Source: Terriglobia bacterium
Lineage (GTDB): Bacteria; Acidobacteriota; UBA6911
Assembly (NCBI GenBank): GCA_020072565.1
Contig: JAIQGI010000009.1
Span: 1-64,000, forward strand
Length of the DNA stretch: 64,000 bases
Reading direction: 5' to 3'
The stretch's first letter is position 1, and every line of letters starts with the position of its first letter. The position numbers and the translations under genes are program-made. Shown here piece after piece: positions 681-34,250 of this stretch. The notes beneath the pieces are model-generated. The model did not search any database. It had not been told where the DNA came from and worked only from the letters and a program-made list of their open reading frames with translations.

Positions 681-752
681 CAGCAAATATGCACTTTGCC
701 GCGTATCTTTTCGCGATCTCGCGCTAATAATAGAAGTACTCAAGAGGGGCCG

Positions 753-1349
753 ATGACGCAGGTCGATGAACATTCCGACAAGATCCTTCTAGACCGGATG
801 TCCTGCGGCGAAGAAAACGCCTTCCCAGAACTCTATCATCGGCACAAAGATGCCATTTTCCGCTTTGCATTTCGGTTGCTTGGGTCTTTGGAGCAGGCGG
901 AAGATGTGACGCACGACTGTTTTTTGAGCCTGATCAATCATCCTGCTCGATTTGATGCGCGCAAGGCGTCGCTTCGAACCTACCTGTATGCTGCTGCTCG
1001 GAATCTAGCCTGCGCACGGTTGCGCCGCTCCAGGTACGAAACCTGCTTATCTTTAAACGAAACGGGAATCGCTGCCGTTTCTGATGAGCCTTTGCTGCAT
1101 GTTCTCGGCGAGGAAATTGCCGGGGAGGTGCGCAAGGCCATTTCAAAAATGTCGCCGTTGCAGCGTGAAGTCGTGGTGCTGTTCGAATATGAGGAGCAGA
1201 GCCTTGAGGAGATTGCGGCAATTCTGAAGACTCATGCCGGGACGATTAAATCGAGGCTGCATCGGGGCCGGGAATGGCTCAGGCGCGAACTCGCCCCTTA
1301 TTTTAACGGAGGTGCAGGTAGGCGCAGGGGGAAATCGAACCATGAATGA
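753..1349 (+). CDS. ECF-type RNA polymerase sigma-70 factor
   Basis: A 198-residue sigma factor with region 2 at about residues 15-85 (FRFAFRLLGSLEQAEDVTHD, then LRTYLYAAARNLA) and region 4 at about 130-180 (QREVVVLFEYEEQSLEEIA, then TIKSRLHRGREWLR, the DNA-recognition helix). The ATG at 753 is preferred over an upstream in-frame start at 696 because a GAGGGG ribosome-binding site lies at 744-749. The gene overlaps the next one by 8 bases, which suggests translational coupling to a putative membrane anti-sigma factor, and a secreted protein follows. The operon layout suggests an envelope-sensing regulator; the signal and regulon cannot be read from sequence. Confidence 0.93.
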   Translation: MTQVDEHSDKILLDRMSCGEENAFPELYHRHKDAIFRFAFRLLGSLEQAEDVTHDCFLSLINHPARFDARKASLRTYLYAAARNLACARLRRSRYETCLSLNETGIAAVSDEPLLHVLGEEIAGEVRKAISKMSPLQREVVVLFEYEEQSLEEIAAILKTHAGTIKSRLHRGREWLRRELAPYFNGGAGRRRGKSNHE

Positions 1350-1875
1350 TGAACTAAGACAGAATGGTGACTTTGTAGAACCTTCTCCCGGGAAATCCGG
1401 AGTCGCCCATGATGAAGAGCTTCGATCGGTTCTGCAGGCATGGCAGGCGCCCGGCGCGCCGGAATCGCTCGACGCACGTTTGTGCGCAGCGTACCGCAAT
1501 CGGCTCAAGCGTACTTCGTTATGGAAACGAATCTTCACCGCCAAAATTCCAGTGCCGATCCCTGTCGCTCTGACGTTCATTGTTCTCTTGCTGATCGCGA
1601 CCGTTTCGGCCCTGCGCGCACCTCGCCCGGCGCCACTTCACGCCGGCCAAGATGTTGCCGCACTGGATCAAACTGCCCCGAAAGTAACGGCGGCCATCCC
1701 CAATCAATCCGTCAGTGGTGCAACCTCTTCAGCAAATCTGCCGAGAAATGTCTCTGCAATCGTTCTGCAGACAGAACAGGGGTCGATTCCGATTGTCACT
1801 GATACAAAATACCGGTTGAATCCGACTCCGAAAATCTACGTCGGGGGATTTTTTAATCCTTCATCAGAAAGGTGA
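1342..1875 (+). CDS. putative single-pass membrane anti-sigma factor
   Basis: A 177-residue protein with an N-terminal cytoplasmic part of about 70 residues, one clear membrane segment (IPVPIPVALTFIVLLLIATV, about residues 72-92) and a periplasmic tail. The cytoplasmic part contains DEELRSVLQAWQAPGAPESLDARL, a pattern seen ahead of the membrane helix in acidobacterial sigma-factor partners. No zinc-binding HxxxCxxC anti-sigma motif is visible, so the assignment rests on topology and on the 8-base overlap with the ECF sigma gene. The start at 1342 lies inside the sigma gene (ATG within CCATGAATGA), and its ribosome-binding site would be the GGGG run just upstream. Confidence 0.6.
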   Translation: MNDELRQNGDFVEPSPGKSGVAHDEELRSVLQAWQAPGAPESLDARLCAAYRNRLKRTSLWKRIFTAKIPVPIPVALTFIVLLLIATVSALRAPRPAPLHAGQDVAALDQTAPKVTAAIPNQSVSGATSSANLPRNVSAIVLQTEQGSIPIVTDTKYRLNPTPKIYVGGFFNPSSER

Positions 1876-10571: not shown

Positions 10572-11588
10572 GTGACATCCGGCGCGCCGTCCGCCACGAG
10601 TGGACGCACCATCGATGCCAAAGGCATGACTGCCATGGCAGGGTTCATCGAGGCACACCGGCACATCAATACCGGACCCAACGAGAAGGAGCAGATGCAG
10701 GCGCTTCTCGAAGCGGGCTACACGACCATCCTGTCCGGAGGCGGTCCGGCAGATGGAAACATCACGCTCAGGGATCACATCGAGAAAGGCCTCATCAACG
10801 GGCCACGCATCATCCCGTCCGGGTCACTGAGGCTTAACAATAGCACCCCGGAAACGGCCCGCGCCGAGATACGGAAGATGGCCGGCATGGGAATCAAGTT
10901 TACGGGCGAGATCGCCCTGACCCCTGTCCCAGGGCCAAGCGAAAAAGAATTGGAAGTCCGCAGAGCCGTGGTCGACGAGGCGAAGAAAGCCGGCGTTATC
11001 GTCCAAGTTCATGCCGTGAGTTCCCGGGCCATGGTAGCCGCCATCGATGCCGGTGTGCCTCTGCTGGTGCACCTCCCCAACAAAGACTGGATGAGCAAGG
11101 AAGACGCCAAGAAACTGGCTGCGTTGGGCACGAAGATTTTGGGAACGGTTGGCTTGGGCACGCCCGTTTTCGGAGTGTTTGCGAATGACAACATCGCGCG
11201 GTTCCGTGACGGTAAGCCGTGGCCCGAATCCATCGTCGACGGGGTCCGCCTCGGTAAGGAAGCTGGATATATGCCGGTGAATGCGCGTACCGCCTGGGAT
11301 GCGGGCGCAATTCTGGGCTGCTGCACCGATACTACCTATGACCCAAAGGCCGGGCTGGACCAGGAGCTAAAGACCCTCAATCCGATGTTCTCAATGCAGG
11401 ACATCATCAAAACGATGGGGCCTAATACGGCGTCCTACACGCAGATGAGCGACCAACTCGGAACGCTGGAGCAGGGCAAAATCGCCGACCTCATTCTTCT
11501 GGATGGCAATCTGCCGGAGGGCTATTGGAACATGCTGAAGACTAAATTGGTGCTCAAGGGTGGCGTGATCGTCGTCGATAAACGCTAG
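10572..11588 (+). pseudogene. metal-dependent amidohydrolase, N-terminally truncated
   Basis: 338 residues of an amidohydrolase-superfamily barrel are readable from a GTG at 10572. They contain the metal-binding HxH (EAHRHIN, H29 and H31), VQVHAVS for a later His ligand, LLVHLPN, GCCTDTTYD in place of the last Asp motif, and the C-terminal GTLEQGKIADLILLDGNLPEG typical of the closing beta domain. The usual signal peptide and about 60-80 residues of the first beta-sandwich are missing. Upstream the frame meets a TAG after about 45 bases, and no ribosome-binding site precedes the GTG. It is probably a dead 5'-truncated gene, although a shortened protein cannot be excluded. Its TAG stop overlaps the stop of the opposing gene. 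Confidence 0.65.
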
Positions 11589-13021
11589 CACTCGTGCGAT
11601 CCGCTCAGGTCGCGCAACCGGTCGAACTCCACGGCATGACCCGATTGAACCGTAGCCCACGGTTCCAGAAAAATGCGCAGATGCGCAGCGTCGACGCCTT
11701 GCGGGCGACCGGGCCAGTCTGCGAGCACGCCACCGTGTGCGGCGCGCATAGAAACGTCGCCAATTTGAAGTTGTAACGCAGAACGGTAGCGCGGCTCGTC
11801 GTAAGTTGAGAATCGAACCTGCGCTCCCGGCAAAATCGCGGAACTCAAGCGCTCCAGCATTTCCTGGACCGATCGTAATTCAAGAGAACCGGCAACCATC
11901 CAAGTCAAATCGAGCGCGTCGCTGATCCGGATGTCCTTCCTCGCCGTTCGAAAAGTCTGTTCGTCCGTGCTGCCTTGCAAGAGTTGGTAGATACTCTGCC
12001 CGGGCTCGTTATCCCTCAGATGCAGAAATGCGCGAGTCGCACGAAGGAAGGCTCCCGGGCGTCCTTCGGCAAAACCGGGCGGCAAGACAGCTTGCAGACG
12101 GTCGCGATGTTCACCCGTGAACGTCAAGAAACGCGCCGCAGCCTCGCCGACGTTGAGCGGCCAGTCTTGAAAATCCGGCAACACTTTCCGAATTGCAGTC
12201 GCTATCGAGCCTACGGGATGATTCGGGTCTGATGCTCGGTCGGAAGGACGCGCAAATCGCTCGGCTGTCTTGCGAACGAACTCTCGGGGGGCCATGCCGC
12301 CATTCACGGTTTGCGACTTACTTGCTGACGCCATTTGGCGCTGAATGAACAGACCGATTAACTCCTTCGGTGGGGGACGAAGCGCCAGGGACTCCCGAAG
12401 GGCCTGGTAGATCTCTCCATTGTCGATTAAATTCTTGAATCTTTGGATTTGGTGTTCTCGTTCCTCGTTCATTCGCTTGCTCCCCTGCAGAATTTGTTCG
12501 ACGGTGCTGCGGAGCTGCCTCCGGCCGTCGTGTAATCGACGTCGTAACGTGCCGGCTGGAATGTCGAGGAATCGAGCGGCGGCGTCCGAGTCGTAACCTT
12601 CGAAGTAGAAGAGCGCCATGGCCTCACGCAATCGATCCGGCAGCTGCCCCATTGCTCGTTGGATCAAGGCCCCCAGCTCCAGCCGCTCCAGTGCGTCGTC
12701 CTGTCGCTCGTTTTGATCGAACAGGTCTACGGGCAAAGCGCCCACGATGCGACGGTCGCTCTGGAGTCCCAGCCGGGCGTTGCGCACAACGATCGTCCGT
12801 AGCCAGGCTCCGAACCGATCCGTATCTCGCAGTGAATCCAAGCCGGCCAACGCCTGGCGGAACGCCTCGGCGGCTGCGTCCTCGGCGGCTGCGAATTCTG
12901 CGGTCACTCCAAATGCCGAAGCGCGCGCCGCACGCCAGTACCGCGAAAATAGCTCGCCAATCGCGGTTCCATCGCCCTTTCGGGCCAGTTCCACCAACTC
13001 TCGATCCGTGTGTTCGCTCAT
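11585..13021 (-). CDS. ECF-type sigma factor with a large C-terminal extension
   Basis: A 478-residue protein. Residues 1-185 are a complete ECF sigma factor: region 2 with FRQALAGLDSLRDTDRFGAW followed by LRTIVVRNAR, and region 4 with PDRLREAMALFYFEGYDSDA followed by GTLRRRLHDGRRQLR. After MNEEREHQIQRF (about 184-195) come roughly 280 residues that match no domain I can name. It is neither SnoaL-like nor a TPR array at sight, and contains PRYRSALQLQIGDVSMRAAH and other beta-like stretches. No anti-sigma gene is adjacent, so the extension may do the regulating. ATG at 13021 has no strong ribosome-binding site. Sigma activity is well supported; the extension is unknown. Confidence 0.85.
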   Translation of the reverse strand: MSEHTDRELVELARKGDGTAIGELFSRYWRAARASAFGVTAEFAAAEDAAAEAFRQALAGLDSLRDTDRFGAWLRTIVVRNARLGLQSDRRIVGALPVDLFDQNERQDDALERLELGALIQRAMGQLPDRLREAMALFYFEGYDSDAAARFLDIPAGTLRRRLHDGRRQLRSTVEQILQGSKRMNEEREHQIQRFKNLIDNGEIYQALRESLALRPPPKELIGLFIQRQMASASKSQTVNGGMAPREFVRKTAERFARPSDRASDPNHPVGSIATAIRKVLPDFQDWPLNVGEAAARFLTFTGEHRDRLQAVLPPGFAEGRPGAFLRATRAFLHLRDNEPGQSIYQLLQGSTDEQTFRTARKDIRISDALDLTWMVAGSLELRSVQEMLERLSSAILPGAQVRFSTYDEPRYRSALQLQIGDVSMRAAHGGVLADWPGRPQGVDAAHLRIFLEPWATVQSGHAVEFDRLRDLSGSHEC

Positions 13022-13900
13022 GTCATTGAGTATGTGTGGGCTGCTCTGTTGTTTGTTCGCCGAACCGTCAAATTAATTTTGAGAAGGGTAAACGCTAGAC
13101 GTTTGCACATGTTCAGAGAAGAATGGTCGTCGGAGTCCGTTCGTCTAACCTTGTGCAGCGACGCGGAAAACCGGAAATGCCGTCGCGATCTTTTCGAATT
13201 CCGCGAGGGGCGCATCCTTGTTCACGGGACGTGGGGTCGAGCCCCCGGTGCTCGCTGCAAGCAAGCCTTCAAGATCGGTGCCCGCTGGTCCGTTGGCGGA
13301 TAGGTCGAATAAGCTGCATCCTGCTTTGGAAATCGGCGTTTCGAGCTTCTGATAATTTATGTCAACTTGCGCCGTCTCCCGGCCGCTGCAAGCGATCATA
13401 ATCCAAGACGATGATGCAGGATACAGGATTTGGGCCCATTTCTGGCAGAAGGTTCGGTATTATCAGGCGCTTTCAGCGTGTATGTGCCATGATCTGAGCC
13501 TGCCACCTAAGCACGGAGATCATGAATGCGACCTGTTCTCTCATTGAAATGGAGAAAGCATCTCGCGTTTCTTGCTCTCATCGTGATACGCCTCATCGCA
13601 GTGTTGACTGTTGGCAGGAAAACGCAGCGGTTTCCACCTCAATCCTCCCAAGGTATCAGCCACGGGCGATGTAACGAGAGCAGTTCCGTGGCGGATTTGA
13701 GTGCAGCAGCTCCAAGTGCGCGCGGCGGTCCCGCAGAAACGAATCGGCCCAGTTTTGGGCGGACTACAGGATGGAGGCTCCTTGTCAATGTTGGCCGGGC
13801 AACTCGGAAGATCCTAAGGAGACGAACGGGATTAATCGTTGTCTTAAGTAGGGAGACGGTCCATGATAGCGGTGTAGTTATTGCTAAGGAGAGAAACACC
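13022..13900. other. long intergenic region
   Basis: About 880 bases with no convincing gene. A leftward reading frame at 13145-13399 (84 codons) looks faintly protein-like but matches no family I recognise, and an open frame upstream of the beta-barrel gene has no coding character. Promoters for the sigma factor (leftward) and the barrel gene (rightward) should lie here. Confidence 0.4.
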
Positions 13901-14518
13901 TTGAAAATACTTCGATCCACGATCGTATTGGCATCTGTGTTGTTTTTCTGCACTCCACTTGCGCATGCGCAGGGCCTTGATGCCTATTTCGGCATGGGGA
14001 CAGCGCGCGACGGCTCAACCAACCAGCTGGTCGACCTTCTCGGCACAGGGAATCCCATGCTGACAACCGCGATGGGCGGCGTCTTCGGCACACTGGGGGC
14101 CGGCTTGGTGATCAAACCGGGTTTTGGTGTCGGCGGAGAAGTATCTTTCCGCTTCGCCCAAGGCGACTACGCCAACACGGGGTACCGGCCGATCTTTTAC
14201 GATTTCAACGGAATCTGGACGCCAAGTCTCGGCACAAAGCGCATCATGCCGGAATTCCAGGGAGGCCTTGGGGGCGTGAATATGCGGTTTTACGGCGGCA
14301 CGCAATACTATGATTACTACACCGGAAGGTACAGCAATTTTGCCGGAAGCATCAACCACTTGCAGTTGCATGCCGAAGCCGGGTTGCGGATTTATATAAA
14401 GGAGCACATCTTCCTGCGCCCTACCTTTGATTATCACTGGGTGAGGAATTTCAATGAATTCATCAGCAATTCGGTGACCAAGTACAGCATCGCCATCGGT
14501 TACAGCACAGGCCAATAA
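13901..14518 (+). CDS. outer-membrane beta-barrel-like secreted protein
   Basis: A 205-residue protein beginning at a TTG with an excellent ribosome-binding site (AAGGAGAG, 13887-13894). Longer in-frame starts further upstream lack one. The signal peptide is LRSTIVLASVLFFCTPLAHA. The mature part has alternating, Gly- and aromatic-rich strands (AGLVIKPGFGVGGEVSFRF, FYGGTQYYDYYTGRYSN, LQLHAEAGLRIYIKEHIFL) as in small eight-stranded outer-membrane barrels of the OmpA/OmpW kind. The last residues (YSIAIGYSTGQ) do not end in the classical aromatic. Its role is unknown. Confidence 0.72.
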   Translation: MKILRSTIVLASVLFFCTPLAHAQGLDAYFGMGTARDGSTNQLVDLLGTGNPMLTTAMGGVFGTLGAGLVIKPGFGVGGEVSFRFAQGDYANTGYRPIFYDFNGIWTPSLGTKRIMPEFQGGLGGVNMRFYGGTQYYDYYTGRYSNFAGSINHLQLHAEAGLRIYIKEHIFLRPTFDYHWVRNFNEFISNSVTKYSIAIGYSTGQ

Positions 14519-28635: not shown

Positions 28636-30321
28636 TTATTGAGTGCCCTTGTGCTTGCCGAGTGGGGCCAGGAGGGTAACCCGGACGCCGTGCCCCGGCG
28701 CAGTTTCGATCTGCACCGAGCCACCCAGATGAGTGAGCCGTTGCTGAATGCTGAAGAGGCCAAAGGTGGGGGTCTTTTTGCTGCGCGCCTTGAGCAGGGA
28801 CGGGTCAAAGCCTTTGCCGGCGTCGGCCACGGTGATCTTGATTCTCTTATCTGGCGTGTGCTCGACGGTCACCGCGGCTTGCGACTGGCCGGAATGCTTG
28901 ATTGCGTTGAGCAGCAATTCTCGCACGCACTCAAACAGCAGCAGGCGGACCTCCTCTTCGGCCGGTTCGGTGCCATTGTCAGATTCCACCTCGACCCGGA
29001 AGTGGCTCTGCTCCCGCACATGGTCTGCAAGCCACTCGAGGCCGGCGATCAAACCCACCTCGTGAAGCACCGGCGGGCTCAGCTCGACTGCCAGCGATCG
29101 GGAGGCTTCAATGGCTTCCGCGAGGATCGACTCGATCGCCTGCGTGAGAGGAGCCCCCCGCCCACCTGGGGTAGCCTCCAGCTTGAGAGCCCCTAGGTGC
29201 ATCTGGGCCGCCACCAGCAACTGCTGAATATGGTCGTGAAGGACCTTCGCAAGCCGTTTCCGCTCCTGCTGTTCGACACGGCTGAGATCGGCTGCCAGGG
29301 CGCGCAGCTTTTCGGCTTGATCCTGCACCTCCGCGGTACGCTCAGTGACACGGTGCTCCAAGGTCTCGTTTAACGCGCGGAGCTGATTCTCGCGGTCGCG
29401 GAGGGCCTCTTCGGCTTGCTTGCGTTCCGCGATCTCTGCGGCAAGACGGGCATTTCTGGCTTCGATCTCCTCCGTGCGTTGCCTGACCAGTTCCTCCAGG
29501 TGCTCACGGTAGCGGCGGAGTTCCGCTTCAGCACGCTCACGTTCGGTGATATCGATGCCCATCGCCAGTGTGAGCGTGGCGCCATCCGAGTCGGTGAAGG
29601 GGAAGTGAAAGATGTGGTAGTTGCGACCGTCCACTCCCGTCGCCTCCCACTCCAGAGGTGTTGAGGCCTTCTGGACCTGTTTCATTTCGCACACCCGGCA
29701 CGGCCGGTCACGGCGCGCCAGGAATTCGAAGCAGCGTTTTCCGTTGAATTCTCCGAAACGTTCCCGGAAGAGGCGGTTGGCAAAGAGCACGCTGTAATCC
29801 GGCGCCACCAGCATCACTCCGGCGGGCAACAACTCCAACACGTCATGGAACCGCCGGCGCTCGGCTTTCAGCGCCTCCTCGGCGCGCCGTCGTTCCGTGT
29901 TCCGATCACGGCGAACTTGCGCCTCGCGCAGTTCGCGCTCCACCGCCGGGATGAGCCGCTTGGGGTGATCTTTCATGACGTAGTCGTGGGCGCCGGCCTT
30001 CATGGCTTCGACGGCCGCATCTTCTCCAATGCGTCCCGACACGATGATAAAGGGCAGGTCGAGGCCCTTTTCCCTGAGGATGTCCAAGGCGGCCAAGCCG
30101 CTGAAGCGGGGCATGAAATAGTCGGCCAGCACCAGGTCCCACGGCCCCTGTTCCAGGGCAGTGCGCATCTCCTCCGGCGTATCCACTCGCTGATGGGTGA
30201 TCACGTAGCCGGCCCGCCTCAAAGTCTGGACCAGAAGCACCGCGTCGTCGGCCGAATCCTCGACGATAAGGAGGCGGAGCGGAATAGCCCTGGCAGAGAG
30301 GCGCTCGTCAGGCTGGTTCAT
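28636..30321 (-). CDS. hybrid sensor: receiver-PAS-HisKA_3 histidine kinase
   Basis: A 561-residue cytoplasmic protein, last gene of the signalling cassette. The receiver domain (15-135) has acidic residues E21/D22, the phospho-acceptor D67 (LADYFMP) and K117 (VMKDHP). A PAS domain follows (155-260) with Cys in PCRVCEMKQV, then long coiled coils (265-345). The NarL-type dimerisation domain has LHDHIQQLLVAAQ (H362), and the HATPase is recognisable by ECVRELLLNAIKHSG and VADAGKGFDPSLL. It has no membrane segment. An N-terminal receiver feeding a kinase suggests control by the upstream histidine kinase through the stand-alone receiver. It overlaps the receiver gene by 14 bases. Confidence 0.9.
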   Translation of the reverse strand: MNQPDERLSARAIPLRLLIVEDSADDAVLLVQTLRRAGYVITHQRVDTPEEMRTALEQGPWDLVLADYFMPRFSGLAALDILREKGLDLPFIIVSGRIGEDAAVEAMKAGAHDYVMKDHPKRLIPAVERELREAQVRRDRNTERRRAEEALKAERRRFHDVLELLPAGVMLVAPDYSVLFANRLFRERFGEFNGKRCFEFLARRDRPCRVCEMKQVQKASTPLEWEATGVDGRNYHIFHFPFTDSDGATLTLAMGIDITERERAEAELRRYREHLEELVRQRTEEIEARNARLAAEIAERKQAEEALRDRENQLRALNETLEHRVTERTAEVQDQAEKLRALAADLSRVEQQERKRLAKVLHDHIQQLLVAAQMHLGALKLEATPGGRGAPLTQAIESILAEAIEASRSLAVELSPPVLHEVGLIAGLEWLADHVREQSHFRVEVESDNGTEPAEEEVRLLLFECVRELLLNAIKHSGQSQAAVTVEHTPDKRIKITVADAGKGFDPSLLKARSKKTPTFGLFSIQQRLTHLGGSVQIETAPGHGVRVTLLAPLGKHKGTQ

Positions 30322-30739: not shown

Positions 30740-31797
30740 TTCTCCTCCTCCGGCGGCCGGGGTATGGCAAAGTGCGCCGTCGTCCCATGACCCGTCGCTC
30801 CTTCGATCCAGACCCGGCCACCGTGGCGTTCGATGATTCGTTTGACGGTGGCAAGTCCGATGCCGGTCCCGGGAAATTCGTCCAACTTGTGCAGGCGCTG
30901 AAAGGGCTGGAACAATTTGCCGGCATAGGTCATATCAAGGCCGGCGCCGTTGTCCCTGATGAAACAGGCGATTTCCTCGCTGCTTGGTTCGGCTCCGAAT
31001 TCGATTCTGGCCGCCTCACGGTTCCGGGTGAATTTCCAGGCATTATCCAGGAGATTTTCGAGCACAACCATCAGCAGGCGCTCGTCGCCAAAGACGGTGA
31101 TGCCTGGGGCCACCACGGCTTCCACCGACCTTTCGGGCTGGGTGAGCCGGAGCCGGTCGAGGATCTTTTGCGCGATCCCGCTCAGGTTCACGCGGCCGCG
31201 TTCCATCGAGGCGCGCGACAACTGTGACAGTTTGAGCAGATCGTCGATAAGTCCGCCCATGCGTCCGGCCGCGGCCGCAATCCGTCGCAGGTAATCCTGC
31301 CCTTCGTCATCGAGTTTCTCGGAATAGTCCGCCAGCAGCAACTGGCTGAAGCCGGCGACGCTCCGCAGCGGTGCACGCAGGTCGTGGGACACGGAGTAGC
31401 TGAACGCCTCGATCTCGCGATTCGCCGCCTCGGTCGCCTCGTTGGCCTGCCGGAGGGATTCGAACGAGGCGCGCATTTCGCGGTTGGCCGCCTCCGCCTT
31501 GGACCGCTCGACGTCGAAGTCCTCGAGCAGGTTCAGCATCGCTCGTTGGGTCGCCTCGGCCATCGCTTTTTCTTCTGCAGAATCCTCGAGGATGTTGAGG
31601 AGGGCACGATGGGTCTCTTCCAGCCGCTCCTTTTCCCGGGCCGAATCCTCGAGAATGTTGAAGACAGCGCGCTGAGTCCTCTCGAGCCGCGCCTTCTCCT
31701 CGGCGAAATCCTCCTGAACAATGGAAGTAGCCTTCGAGAAGTCCTCGGCGTCGATCTCCGGCAGTGCCGGAGGGATCGGCCTGGAAGCGGAACTCAT
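30736..31797 (-). CDS. cytoplasmic histidine kinase with a triplicated 21-residue signalling helix
   Basis: A 353-residue soluble kinase. Residues 33-95 are three consecutive 21-residue units (each three heptads) ending in ILEDSA, ILEDSA and LLEDFD, forming a continuous coiled coil. The HisKA domain has SVSHDLRAPL (H138). The HATPase is complete (ENLLDNAWKFT, RDNGAGLDM, GTGIGLATVKRII). No sensor domain is present: its input very likely comes from the PAS protein encoded immediately upstream, whose gene overlaps it by 4 bases and also ends in a coiled coil. Together the two look like a split version of a multi-PAS kinase. Confidence 0.93.
   Translation of the reverse strand: MSSASRPIPPALPEIDAEDFSKATSIVQEDFAEEKARLERTQRAVFNILEDSAREKERLEETHRALLNILEDSAEEKAMAEATQRAMLNLLEDFDVERSKAEAANREMRASFESLRQANEATEAANREIEAFSYSVSHDLRAPLRSVAGFSQLLLADYSEKLDDEGQDYLRRIAAAAGRMGGLIDDLLKLSQLSRASMERGRVNLSGIAQKILDRLRLTQPERSVEAVVAPGITVFGDERLLMVVLENLLDNAWKFTRNREAARIEFGAEPSSEEIACFIRDNGAGLDMTYAGKLFQPFQRLHKLDEFPGTGIGLATVKRIIERHGGRVWIEGATGHGTTAHFAIPRPPEEEK
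31513..31701 (-). repeat. three 63-base coding repeats (21 residues each)
   Basis: Within the kinase gene, residues 33-53, 54-74 and 75-95 repeat with exact 21-residue spacing. Each contains an acidic-basic start, T-x-R-A near the middle and N-(I/L)-L-E-D near the end. A 21-residue period equals three heptads, so unit gain or loss would change coiled-coil length without breaking register. Confidence 0.9.
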
Positions 31798-34250
31798 AGG
31801 TCGGTCCTCTCCGGCGGTTTGGGGTTGCGGAGGAGATCGACCTCGGCTTTCAGTTCCGCGATCTCCTTCTTCAGTTCGATCATCTTGAGTTCGCGCCCGA
31901 CGGTCAGTTTCTGGAATCGTTCCAGTTCCGCCAGTCGCTCCAGTTCGCGAGCCCGTTGTTCTTCGCGCGCCCTCTGCTCGGCGACTTTCGCCTCGGCTTC
32001 CATCTGCGCGGTCACATCGCGCGCCGCCGCGAAAACACCGAGAACATTGCCGCGCGCGTCCCGATAGACTGAGGCGTTATAAAGCACGTACGTGAGGCGC
32101 CCCTCCTTGTGGCGGATGGTCAGGGGATAGTCGGTCACGAATCCTTTCGAGAAGACCTGTTCATACCCTCGGCGGGCATTTTCCGGTTCGGTGAAGTAGT
32201 CGGAGAAGTCCGTGCCGATGAGGAGTTCGCGCGCCATGCCCGTCACCTTGATGGTCGCTTCATTGACGTCGGTGATTTTTCCCTCCGGACTGATAGTGAC
32301 CAGCGGGTCGAGGCTGGCCTCGATCAAACTGCGGGCATACTGCGCCACTTGCCGCTGGGCGGTGACGTCGCGCGCCGCAGCGAAGACGCCCAGCACATTG
32401 CCCCTCAGATCCCGGTAGACCGAGGCGTTGTAGAGCACGTCCAGGAGCCGGCCGTCCTTGTGCCGGATGGTCAGGGGATAGTCGGTCACAAATCCCTTCT
32501 CAAAGACCTGGAGGTAACCCTCTCTGGCCTTTTCCGGCTCTGTGAAGTAGTTCGAGAAATCCGTGCCGATGAGTTGCTCGCGGGTCATGCCGGTGACCTT
32601 GATCGTGGCCTCATTGACGTCGGTTATCTTTCCTTCGGCGGAAATGGTGACCAAAGGGTCGAGGCTCGCCTCGATCAGACTCCGCGCATACTGGGAGGCG
32701 TAGCGCAGCTTCTCCTCGGCCAGTTTTTTCTCGGCGATGTCCGTGCTCATCAGCAGATAGCCGATCGGACGTCCGGAGGCGTCGTTGCGGCGCGTGATCA
32801 CCACGCTGGCCGCGAAACGGGAGCCGTCCTTGCGAACCCGCTGGAACTCGGCCTCCGCGAGCCCCTTTTCGTAGGCCTCCGCCAGCAGTCGGTCGACGGC
32901 CCCGGACCGGATGTCCTCGGGCGCGTGCAGCAGGCTGGAGTCTTTGCCGATGATCTCTTCCTGGGTATACCCGTAGTTCAGCCGTGCACCCTGGTTCCAC
33001 GAGAGGATGCGATGGTCGAGGTCCTTGCCGATGATAGAGTATTTGGTGGAACTCTCTAAAATGTTATCGAGGAAGTTCTTCGTCTCCGCGAACTCACGCA
33101 TCATGCGCTTGGATTCGGTCACATCGCGCGCGGCAGCGAATACACCCTGGACATTGCCGCCGGGATCGCGGTAGACGGAGGCGTTGTACAACACGTCCAC
33201 CAACTGGCCGTTCTTGTGCCGGATGGTCAGGGGATAGTCGGTGACGAATCCCTTCTCGAAAACCTGCCGGTATCCTTCTCTGGCCTTCTCCGGCTCTGTG
33301 AAGTAGTCCGAGAAGTCGGCGCCGATGAGCTGCTCACGGGTCATGCCGGTGACCTTGATCGTCGCCTCATTGACGTCAGTGATCTTGCCTTCAGGGCTGA
33401 TGGTGACCAGCGGATCCAGACTGGCTTCAATCAGGCTGCGGGCGTACTGAGAAGCCTGCCGCTGCTGGGTCACGTCTCGCGCGGCGGCGAACACCCCCAG
33501 CACCTTGCCGCTGAGATCCCGGTAGAGCGAGGCGTTGTAAAGGACGTCCGTCAGCCGGCCATCACGGTGACGGATGGTCAGGGGGTAGTCGGTCACGGCG
33601 CCTTGGGAGAAGACCCGCCGGTACCCGGCACGGGCCTTTTCGGGTTTGGTGAAATAGTCGGAGAAATCGGCGCCGATCAGTTGCTCGCGCGGCGTGCCGG
33701 TGACCTTGATGGTCGCTTCATTGACGTCGGTGATCTTGCCTTCCGGGCTGATCGTAACCAGCGGGTCGAGACTCGCCTCGATCAAGCTGCGAGCGTACTG
33801 GGACGTGGCGAGCACCTGTTGCTCGATCCGCTTGCGCTCCGAGATGTCCCTGGCAATGGAGGAAACCCCGATGAGCCGGCCGGCAGTGTCACGGATGGGG
33901 GAAACGGTGACGGAGACATGGACGAGGGCGCCGTTTTTGCGCCTTCGAAGCGTCTCGTAGTGCTCGACACGCTGGCCGTTGCGTATACGCTGGAGGATCT
34001 CCTGGATCTCGCCGTCCCGCTCCGGCGGTGACAGGATCGCCATGCTTTGGCCGATCATTTCTCCGGCGGTATATCCATACATCAATTGCGCGGCTCGGTT
34101 CCAACTTGTAATAACGCCATCCATCGTCTTGCCGATGATGGCGTCATCCGAGGATTCCACAATGGATGCCAGCAGCGACGAGCGCCCCGGGTCTGCCGAG
34201 GCAGGAAGCGTGTTGCGATCTTGCGTCTGTCTGCGCCTGGGTGTCCGCAT
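31794..34250 (-). CDS. multi-PAS sensor protein without kinase domain
   Basis: An 818-residue soluble protein with six PAS/PAC units: about 27-140, 151-262, 268-378, 392-508, 520-630 and 637-748. Units 2, 3, 5 and 6 are near copies of one another (SLIEASLDPLVTISPEGKIT, VNEATIKVTG, DYPLTIRH, LGVFAAARDVT); units 1 and 4 belong to a different PAS type (AIIGKTMDGVITSWN; SIIGKDLDHRILSWN). The C-terminus (750-805) is a charged coiled coil (EEQRARELERLAELERFQ). There is no kinase, GGDEF, EAL or HTH domain, so signalling must pass to the next gene product, overlapping by 4 bases. AGGAGGAGG precedes the ATG. No haem- or flavin-binding signature is certain. Confidence 0.92.
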   Translation of the reverse strand: MRTPRRRQTQDRNTLPASADPGRSSLLASIVESSDDAIIGKTMDGVITSWNRAAQLMYGYTAGEMIGQSMAILSPPERDGEIQEILQRIRNGQRVEHYETLRRRKNGALVHVSVTVSPIRDTAGRLIGVSSIARDISERKRIEQQVLATSQYARSLIEASLDPLVTISPEGKITDVNEATIKVTGTPREQLIGADFSDYFTKPEKARAGYRRVFSQGAVTDYPLTIRHRDGRLTDVLYNASLYRDLSGKVLGVFAAARDVTQQRQASQYARSLIEASLDPLVTISPEGKITDVNEATIKVTGMTREQLIGADFSDYFTEPEKAREGYRQVFEKGFVTDYPLTIRHKNGQLVDVLYNASVYRDPGGNVQGVFAAARDVTESKRMMREFAETKNFLDNILESSTKYSIIGKDLDHRILSWNQGARLNYGYTQEEIIGKDSSLLHAPEDIRSGAVDRLLAEAYEKGLAEAEFQRVRKDGSRFAASVVITRRNDASGRPIGYLLMSTDIAEKKLAEEKLRYASQYARSLIEASLDPLVTISAEGKITDVNEATIKVTGMTREQLIGTDFSNYFTEPEKAREGYLQVFEKGFVTDYPLTIRHKDGRLLDVLYNASVYRDLRGNVLGVFAAARDVTAQRQVAQYARSLIEASLDPLVTISPEGKITDVNEATIKVTGMARELLIGTDFSDYFTEPENARRGYEQVFSKGFVTDYPLTIRHKEGRLTYVLYNASVYRDARGNVLGVFAAARDVTAQMEAEAKVAEQRAREEQRARELERLAELERFQKLTVGRELKMIELKKEIAELKAEVDLLRNPKPPERTDL
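31992..32693 (-). repeat. two tandem 351-base PAS-module repeats (units 5 and 6)
   Basis: Residues 520-636 and 637-753 of the PAS protein align with a spacing of exactly 117 residues (351 bases) and are almost identical over long stretches. They are the same module as units 2 and 3. Confidence 0.9.
33099..33800 (-). repeat. two tandem 351-base PAS-module repeats (units 2 and 3)
   Basis: Residues 151-267 and 268-384 show the same 117-residue period as units 5 and 6. A different PAS unit (unit 4, 392-508) separates the two pairs, so the arrangement is 1-AA-4-AA, best explained by duplication of a module and then of a pair. Confidence 0.9.

Follow-up and report, generated by a model that had tools for sequence, protein, structure and literature searches.

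The window analysed here (i.e., the whole stretch of DNA, 64,000 nucleotides long) contains, at positions 11585-13021 of the minus strand, a single open frame of 478 codons that starts with ATG and encodes a protein of 478 residues, referred to as P0001. The gene and its recognisable domains are as follows:

11585..13021, minus strand: whole gene of an ECF sigma factor with a C-terminal extension (478-residue ORF with Pfam matches)
12764..12952, minus strand: sigma region 2, residues 24-86 (Pfam PF04542, Sigma70_r2, E = 1.6e-5)
12512..12667, minus strand: sigma region 4, residues 119-170 (Pfam PF08281, Sigma70_r4_2, E = 4.9e-11)

The Pfam models above or near their cut-offs are confined to Sigma70_r2, r4 and ECF, with no region 1.1 or region 3, which places P0001 among the ECF sigma factors, and the last Pfam match stops by residue 172. 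The sigma part also matches NCBIfam TIGR02937 (sigma70-ECF), scoring 60.2 bits where the cut-off is 42.9; among solved structures of ECF sigma factors, 5wuq is one of its matches (E = 1.5e-12). The original prediction of an ECF sigma factor with a large tail is borne out by the matches to regions 2 and 4 within a 478-residue frame, yet its figures (a sigma part ending near residue 185, followed by a tail of about 280 residues) have to be adjusted: the sigma part ends at about residue 178-183, and the tail has about 295 residues. GC contents at the three codon positions are 0.65/0.47/0.62 in the tail and 0.72/0.48/0.69 in the sigma part, and given this resemblance the tail looks like real coding sequence.

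The 3' neighbour of the gene is a convergent amidohydrolase gene (10572-11588, plus strand), and the upstream neighbour is a divergent ORF (13526-14518, plus strand) with no Pfam match. As had been claimed, no anti-sigma gene adjoins the P0001 gene, judging from the neighbouring ORFs and their Pfam matches.

The tail had been described as lacking a recognised family, and an HMM search of residues 186-478 had been proposed. This search returned zero families from Pfam and NCBIfam at E ≤ 1, with no clear match to a known ECF-associated domain, and again zero from Pfam at E ≤ 10, whether the tail was taken whole or as two pieces. Two PHROGs families were the only ones matched in that collection, both insignificantly (E = 0.15 and 0.25). 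The description thus stands as far as Pfam and NCBIfam are concerned, yet not in full, since the profile comparisons presented below point to a degenerate PheRS-alpha-like domain.

Relatives of the tail were scarce in the genome collections. Among the 38 genomes of its own class, the tail was found at E ≤ 0.001 in one, its own, and was absent from the other 37. In the phylum (396 genomes), 91 genomes, its own included, gave a match at E ≤ 1, and two other short places were found at E ≤ 0.001, one with E = 2.9e-4 and a stop inside it, the other with E = 6.6e-4. Five places from the phylum scan, the one at 2.9e-4 not among them, were re-aligned as possible kin of the tail and rejected, as they matched scattered parts of unrelated frames, one of which could be identified by eye as DNA polymerase IV. 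The two places at E ≤ 0.001 appear to show no sign of real kinship to the tail. Searches with P0001 found no relative of the tail in viral contigs or in genome contigs, nothing at E ≤ 5 in phages, and two matches in plasmids (E = 2 and 4). The plasmid match H1, which begins in sigW and continues into a zf-HC2 gene, was read as a sigma match and set aside as a tail relative. Among the matches listed elsewhere for the whole of P0001, those found were sigma matches, all of them ending by residue 226.

Regulatory extensions are known from other ECF groups, in which they inhibit or activate the sigma factor through domain or linker contacts (PMC8999054, PMC8103513). Table 2 of PMC8999054 lists 26 such groups, the tail domains not being named in the table. 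Like P0001, these proteins have sigma regions 2 and 4, a C-terminal tail and no adjacent anti-sigma gene; none of the extension types compared here, however, fits the P0001 tail. A SnoaL-like tail (ECF41/ECF56 type) and a TPR tail (ECF42 type) are both disfavoured by the absence of any Pfam match at E ≤ 10, in line with the earlier statement that the tail is unlike either. A cysteine-rich tail (ECF238/CorE type) does not agree with the single cysteine of P0001, residue 478. A zinc finger plus transmembrane tail (ECF48/52/53 type) disagrees with that same cysteine count, with the lack of Pfam matches, and with the absence of a membrane-like stretch, the highest 19-residue Kyte-Doolittle mean in the tail being 0.81.

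Many of the better sigma matches to P0001 carry large tails themselves, of the ankyrin, DUF1835, Polbeta and further kinds. Ankyrin-repeat tails are found in six acidobacterial ECF genes (L064 and L076-L080, with Pfam run on L064), DUF1835 tails, by Pfam, in L103, L105, L109, L112 and L072, and a Polbeta nucleotidyltransferase domain in an ECF sigma factor from Armatimonadetes (L102:3875-5455, plus strand). These proteins represent a neighbouring sigma lineage with large, exchangeable tails, which differ from the tail of P0001. The group ECF264, represented in PMC8999054 by a Saccharibacillus protein, perhaps has a tail of the DUF1835 kind. Two further loci, L101 and L123, also encode ankyrin-tailed ECF sigma factors, L101 encoding the same protein as L076, whose genome belongs, like the window's, to Acidobacteriota, so that the ankyrin set comprises Acidobacteriota and one Poribacteria contig. 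Separately, an ECF sigma factor from Fimbriimonas (L148:3944-5539, plus strand) has a weak ATP-synt_ab match, below cut-off, in its tail, and one from the same GTDB family as the window genome (L045:1471-2931, plus strand) has a hydrophobic-looking tail of about 290 residues with no Pfam match.

In a tree of 101 sigma parts, P0001 forms a long, unplaced branch beside a clade that holds the ankyrin fusions, most DUF1835 fusions and a set of ECF sigma factors with PheS-like tails. The tree left out tail-less rows below 47 bits, rows covering fewer than 120 positions, duplicates, L100 and L101. Constraining P0001 to group with the ECF-PheS sigma factors costs 0.07 log-likelihood units (AU p = 0.506), and constraining it to group with the six ankyrin-tailed ones costs 6.84 units (p = 0.324); neither placement is rejected.

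The ECF-PheS fusions are a small acidobacterial family in which an ECF sigma part is followed by an apparently intact PheRS-alpha-like (class II) core, matching PF01409 with E-values down to 3e-26. Complete loci are L041, L099 and L182-L186, while L100 and L188/L189 are incomplete or broken. Two of the fusions are located as follows, within their own loci:

L099, 1498-2763, minus strand: ECF-PheS fusion, sigma part plus PF01409-type tail
L041, 781-2055, minus strand: ECF-PheS fusion, sigma part plus PF01409-type tail

PF01409 was matched in all six relatives scanned. The tail of L041, which is from the same class as the window genome, matches it with E = 1.3e-16. Against the PDB, the L041 tail matches PheRS alpha chains from E = 7.1e-11, and a profile of six ECF-PheS tails matches them from E = 1.2e-21, along with SepRS and PylRS. 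The phylum search with L041 gave three of 396 genomes at E ≤ 1e-19, its own included, and in the class to which L099's genome belongs, eight of 193 genomes matched at E ≤ 1e-24; among these eight, the copy in G143 stops matching near a contig end and the copy in G648 lies in two pieces (i.e., its frame is broken). When genome contigs were scanned with the ECF-PheS alignment, using generic sigma patterns, none of the 80 loci kept showed a PheS-like tail; these loci supplied the other tail fusions. A profile search with P0001 and its relatives together in the class of G347 revealed no intermediate: 21 of 192 genomes matched at E ≤ 1e-16, namely the eight known fusion genomes and 13 others which, judged collectively by match extent, look like ordinary PheS. 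Inspection by eye of crude ORF lists around nine ECF-PheS loci made no conserved partner gene evident.

P0001 and the ECF-PheS fusions are built alike, with tails of a similar order of size behind an ECF sigma part. Alignment of the tails divides that of P0001 into three segments:

12317..12472, minus strand: linker without kin, residues 184-235 (a gap against the ECF-PheS tails in the alignment)
12155..12316, minus strand: PheS-like core start, residues 236-289, corresponding to ENPV...F in the relatives and HPL...F in ordinary PheS (HMM alignment, hhalign)
11588..12154, minus strand: putative degenerate class II synthetase-like core, residues 290-478 (weak collinear match)

Scored with a profile built from seven ECF-PheS tails, P0001 reaches 13.1 bits (E = 2.7e-6 for one target), and the highest of 5000 shuffles reaches 5.7. 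The 24 tailed relatives in the sigma tree set the number of trials, and are too few to cancel this E-value. Applied to 2252 frames, the same profile ranks the whole frame of P0001 as the best outside the family, with 11.8 bits, the next frame reaching 7.2. Its main signal lies in residues 236-289, aligned with the HPL...F helix that opens the PheS core, and it is on this segment that hhalign places its match to the whole tail (probability 27.9%, E = 0.00064, 38 columns aligned). A joint profile of ECF-PheS and ordinary PheS yields 10.5 bits over residues 266-412, which none of 5000 shuffles equals. On the same frame set, this joint profile gives 9.8 to a LysRS (recognised by eye), 7.3 to the window's AspRS and 7.6 to the whole frame of P0001, so that in sequence comparison P0001 scores like the true class II enzymes. 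Profiles of the ankyrin, DUF1835 and nucleotidyltransferase tails and of two other ECF tails do not match P0001, indicating that the likeness to PheS tails is not given by just any ECF tail.

Taken alone, the core of P0001 (profiles for which were built from six or seven complete tails, excluding the partial L100 and the broken L188/L189) scores much lower: 0.5 bits with the ECF-PheS profile, equalled by 167 of 5000 shuffles, 3.9 bits with the joint profile, equalled by 9 of 5000, and 0.65% probability with E = 0.088 in hhalign. A global alignment gives the core z = 2.7, which 28 of 3000 shuffles and 9 of 2556 real decoys also attain; when the first 30 residues are kept and the core is shuffled, 83 of 5000 sequences score as high as P0001. 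The rest of the core fits the PheS-like core only collinearly (p of about 0.002-0.03), running to its end with few gaps. PF01409 finds no match in the P0001 tail even at E ≤ 10. Pairwise scores between P0001 and the ECF-PheS tails do not exceed 11.3 bits, below the 20 best chance-like frames chosen by the phylum scan, so the case rests on the sigma part having pointed first to the ECF-PheS family. Structure prediction with AlphaFold, run twice without an alignment, produced no confident fold (mean pLDDT of 40.3 and 38.8); the model of the tail with pLDDT 38.8 places a helix, three strands and a helix across the last third, which is the expected order, but at this confidence it carries little weight. 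These values indicate that residues 236-289 are significantly similar, at the sequence level, to ECF-PheS tails, while the reading of the remaining tail as the same domain in decayed form is supported, not proven.

Two motif remnants in the core can be aligned with class II motifs:

11948..11959, minus strand: QTFR, residues 355-358, aligned with the YR of motif 2; the FHQxE that follows it is lost (alignments)
11660..11671, minus strand: FLEP, residues 451-454, aligned with the GLER of motif 3; the arginine is lost (alignments)

P0001 keeps 19 of the 62 columns that are invariant in six ECF-PheS tails, including the Pro-Val of the first helix, the LR before motif 2, the motif 2 arginine (Arg358), the P of LPG and the LE of motif 3. 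Neither motif 2 (R...FHQxE) nor motif 3 (GxGxGLER) is complete, as FHQxE and the motif 3 arginine and glycines are lost. FHQxE and the glycines and arginine of motif 3 have established catalytic roles in class II synthetases, and with these residues gone the tail is not expected to work as a synthetase. Compared with the PheRS alpha subunit (PheS, class IIc), the segment order, the HPL...F helix, the LR, the motif 2 arginine and the motif 3 LE are recognisable, whereas the catalytic motif set is missing and the domain is part of a sigma factor; a separate PheS-like frame is present in the same genome (G000:C2:206536-207195). The ECF-PheS tails differ from that of P0001 in matching PF01409 and in keeping both FHQxE and GLER, and P0001 has, in addition, the linker of about 50 residues.

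A further resemblance is found at the junction of sigma part and tail, where the P0001 gene has a Shine-Dalgarno-like sequence followed by a start codon:

12480..12485, minus strand: GGGGAG, Shine-Dalgarno-like, seven bases before Met184 (sequence scan)
12470..12472, minus strand: ATG of Met184, a possible internal start with a tail-only product of 295 residues (sequence scan)

Met184 is the only one of 14 internal ATG/GTG codons in the gene to be preceded by GGAG. In all nine ECF-PheS genes, region 4 ends with AAG GAG ATN GAR, followed by ATG (four genes) or GTG (five), so that a Shine-Dalgarno sequence stands six bases before a start codon where the tail begins; the GGGGAG of P0001 is weaker than this AAGGAG. 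Against a background of 23 window genes chosen from the ORF list and six of the nine relatives, AAGGAG precedes 6 of 134 internal ATG/GTG codons in the relatives, all at the junction, and 1 of 522 in the window genes. GGAG alone is commoner (17/134 and 14/522, respectively). Some of the relatives are closely related, which makes these counts non-independent, and a codon preference for AAG and GAG plays a part in them. A looser scan found a site one residue before the Pfam domain in four of five DUF1835-tailed genes (L103, L105, L109 and L112, from Paenibacillaceae; the partial DUF1835 frame L145 was left out), the signal in none of the six acidobacterial ankyrin-tailed genes, and sites near the junction stretch also in L123, L102, L045 and L148. 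The signal suggests either that the tail is also made as a separate product or that two genes once stood here, and the likely history is that a sigma gene became joined to a downstream gene overlapping it when the stop codon between them was lost.

Given this evidence, the most fitting interpretation of the tail is a synthetase-like domain that has degenerated and is no longer catalytic. The leading proposition derives the extension of the ECF sigma factor P0001 from a PheRS-alpha-like (class IIc) core, with loss of the catalytic motifs; we judge its chances to be evenly balanced. A less probable explanation, though one to be taken seriously, is that the tail is an unrelated orphan domain regulating the sigma factor, its likeness to PheS being due to chance or to a short segment shared at residues 236-289. 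The confinement of the strong match to this segment agrees with it, as do the lack of a PF01409 match, the near-chance result for the core alone (hhalign and 167/5000 shuffles) and the absence of an orthologue from the other 37 genomes of the class. Nevertheless, in the relatives the matching segment opens the PheS-like core, at the position of HPL...F in ordinary PheS, and the core that follows is collinear to its end with few gaps and beats most shuffles and decoys.

It is improbable that the tail is decaying without function while the sigma part works alone, as the loss of catalytic residues, the presence of the tail in a single species (in the own-class search) and the broken frame in one relative (G648) would suggest; 295 codons have stayed open with coding-like composition. 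A fused zinc-finger or transmembrane anti-sigma factor activated by proteolysis, as in ECF48/52/53, would account for a large tail where a separate anti-sigma gene is absent, and the junction signal could then reflect the fusion of formerly separate neighbours, but with one cysteine (residue 478), no membrane-like stretch (maximum 19-residue mean of 0.81) and no Pfam anti-sigma domain in the tail, this explanation is very improbable indeed.

If the tail does descend from a synthetase-like core, it is best taken as a regulatory extension of a type new to ECF sigma factors. By analogy with other ECF extensions, it would control the sigma factor from within the same protein and fill the role of the absent anti-sigma factor. 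It would do this either by folding back onto regions 2 and 4 or by forming dimers via the synthetase-like core, until a signal relieved its control. The retention of motif 2 and motif 3 residues in the intact relatives suggests a small-molecule or tRNA signal there, which might be an amino acid, an adenylate or a tRNA; in P0001, where the synthetase site has decayed, another ligand or a protein partner or contact would have to be assumed. The start signal at the junction may also yield a free copy of the tail acting in trans.

Synthetase-like domains are known to serve sensing or allostery in the HisRS-like part of GCN2 and in HisZ, a role that the domain of P0001 may share, although both belong to another subclass and are not placed on a sigma factor. 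In the open-licence literature, no paper was found on ECF sigma factors fused to PheRS or other tRNA synthetase, ankyrin or DUF1835 tails, nor on internal translation in them; an ECF sigma factor with an on-board regulator is known as such, and the PheS-like variant is apparently undescribed. A wider and rather doubtful proposal is that there is a class of ECF sigma factors with an on-board synthetase-like sensor, in which the fusion and a free sensor, made from the internal start, set sigma activity by amino acid or tRNA state, P0001 being a catalytically dead offshoot that has kept the scaffold and the two-product layout. If true, ECF sigma factors would gain a new kind of sensor, in which the fold of a translation enzyme is coupled directly to promoter choice, and a single protein would suffice to test whether the state of an amino acid or tRNA is linked to sigma activity. 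The distribution of the junction signal (in PheS-tailed genes and 4/5 DUF1835-tailed ones, but 0/6 ankyrin-tailed ones) suggests, moreover, that some one-component sigma factors may in fact be made as two products, which would escape annotation.

Elsewhere in the window, a second ECF sigma factor (696-1349, plus strand), with Pfam matches to regions 2 and 4, is overlapped by an ORF with no Pfam match (1234-1875, plus strand) that may be its partner. In addition, an 818-residue protein with six PAS stretches is encoded at 31794-34250 (minus strand), near a response-regulator/histidine-kinase hybrid at 28636-30321.
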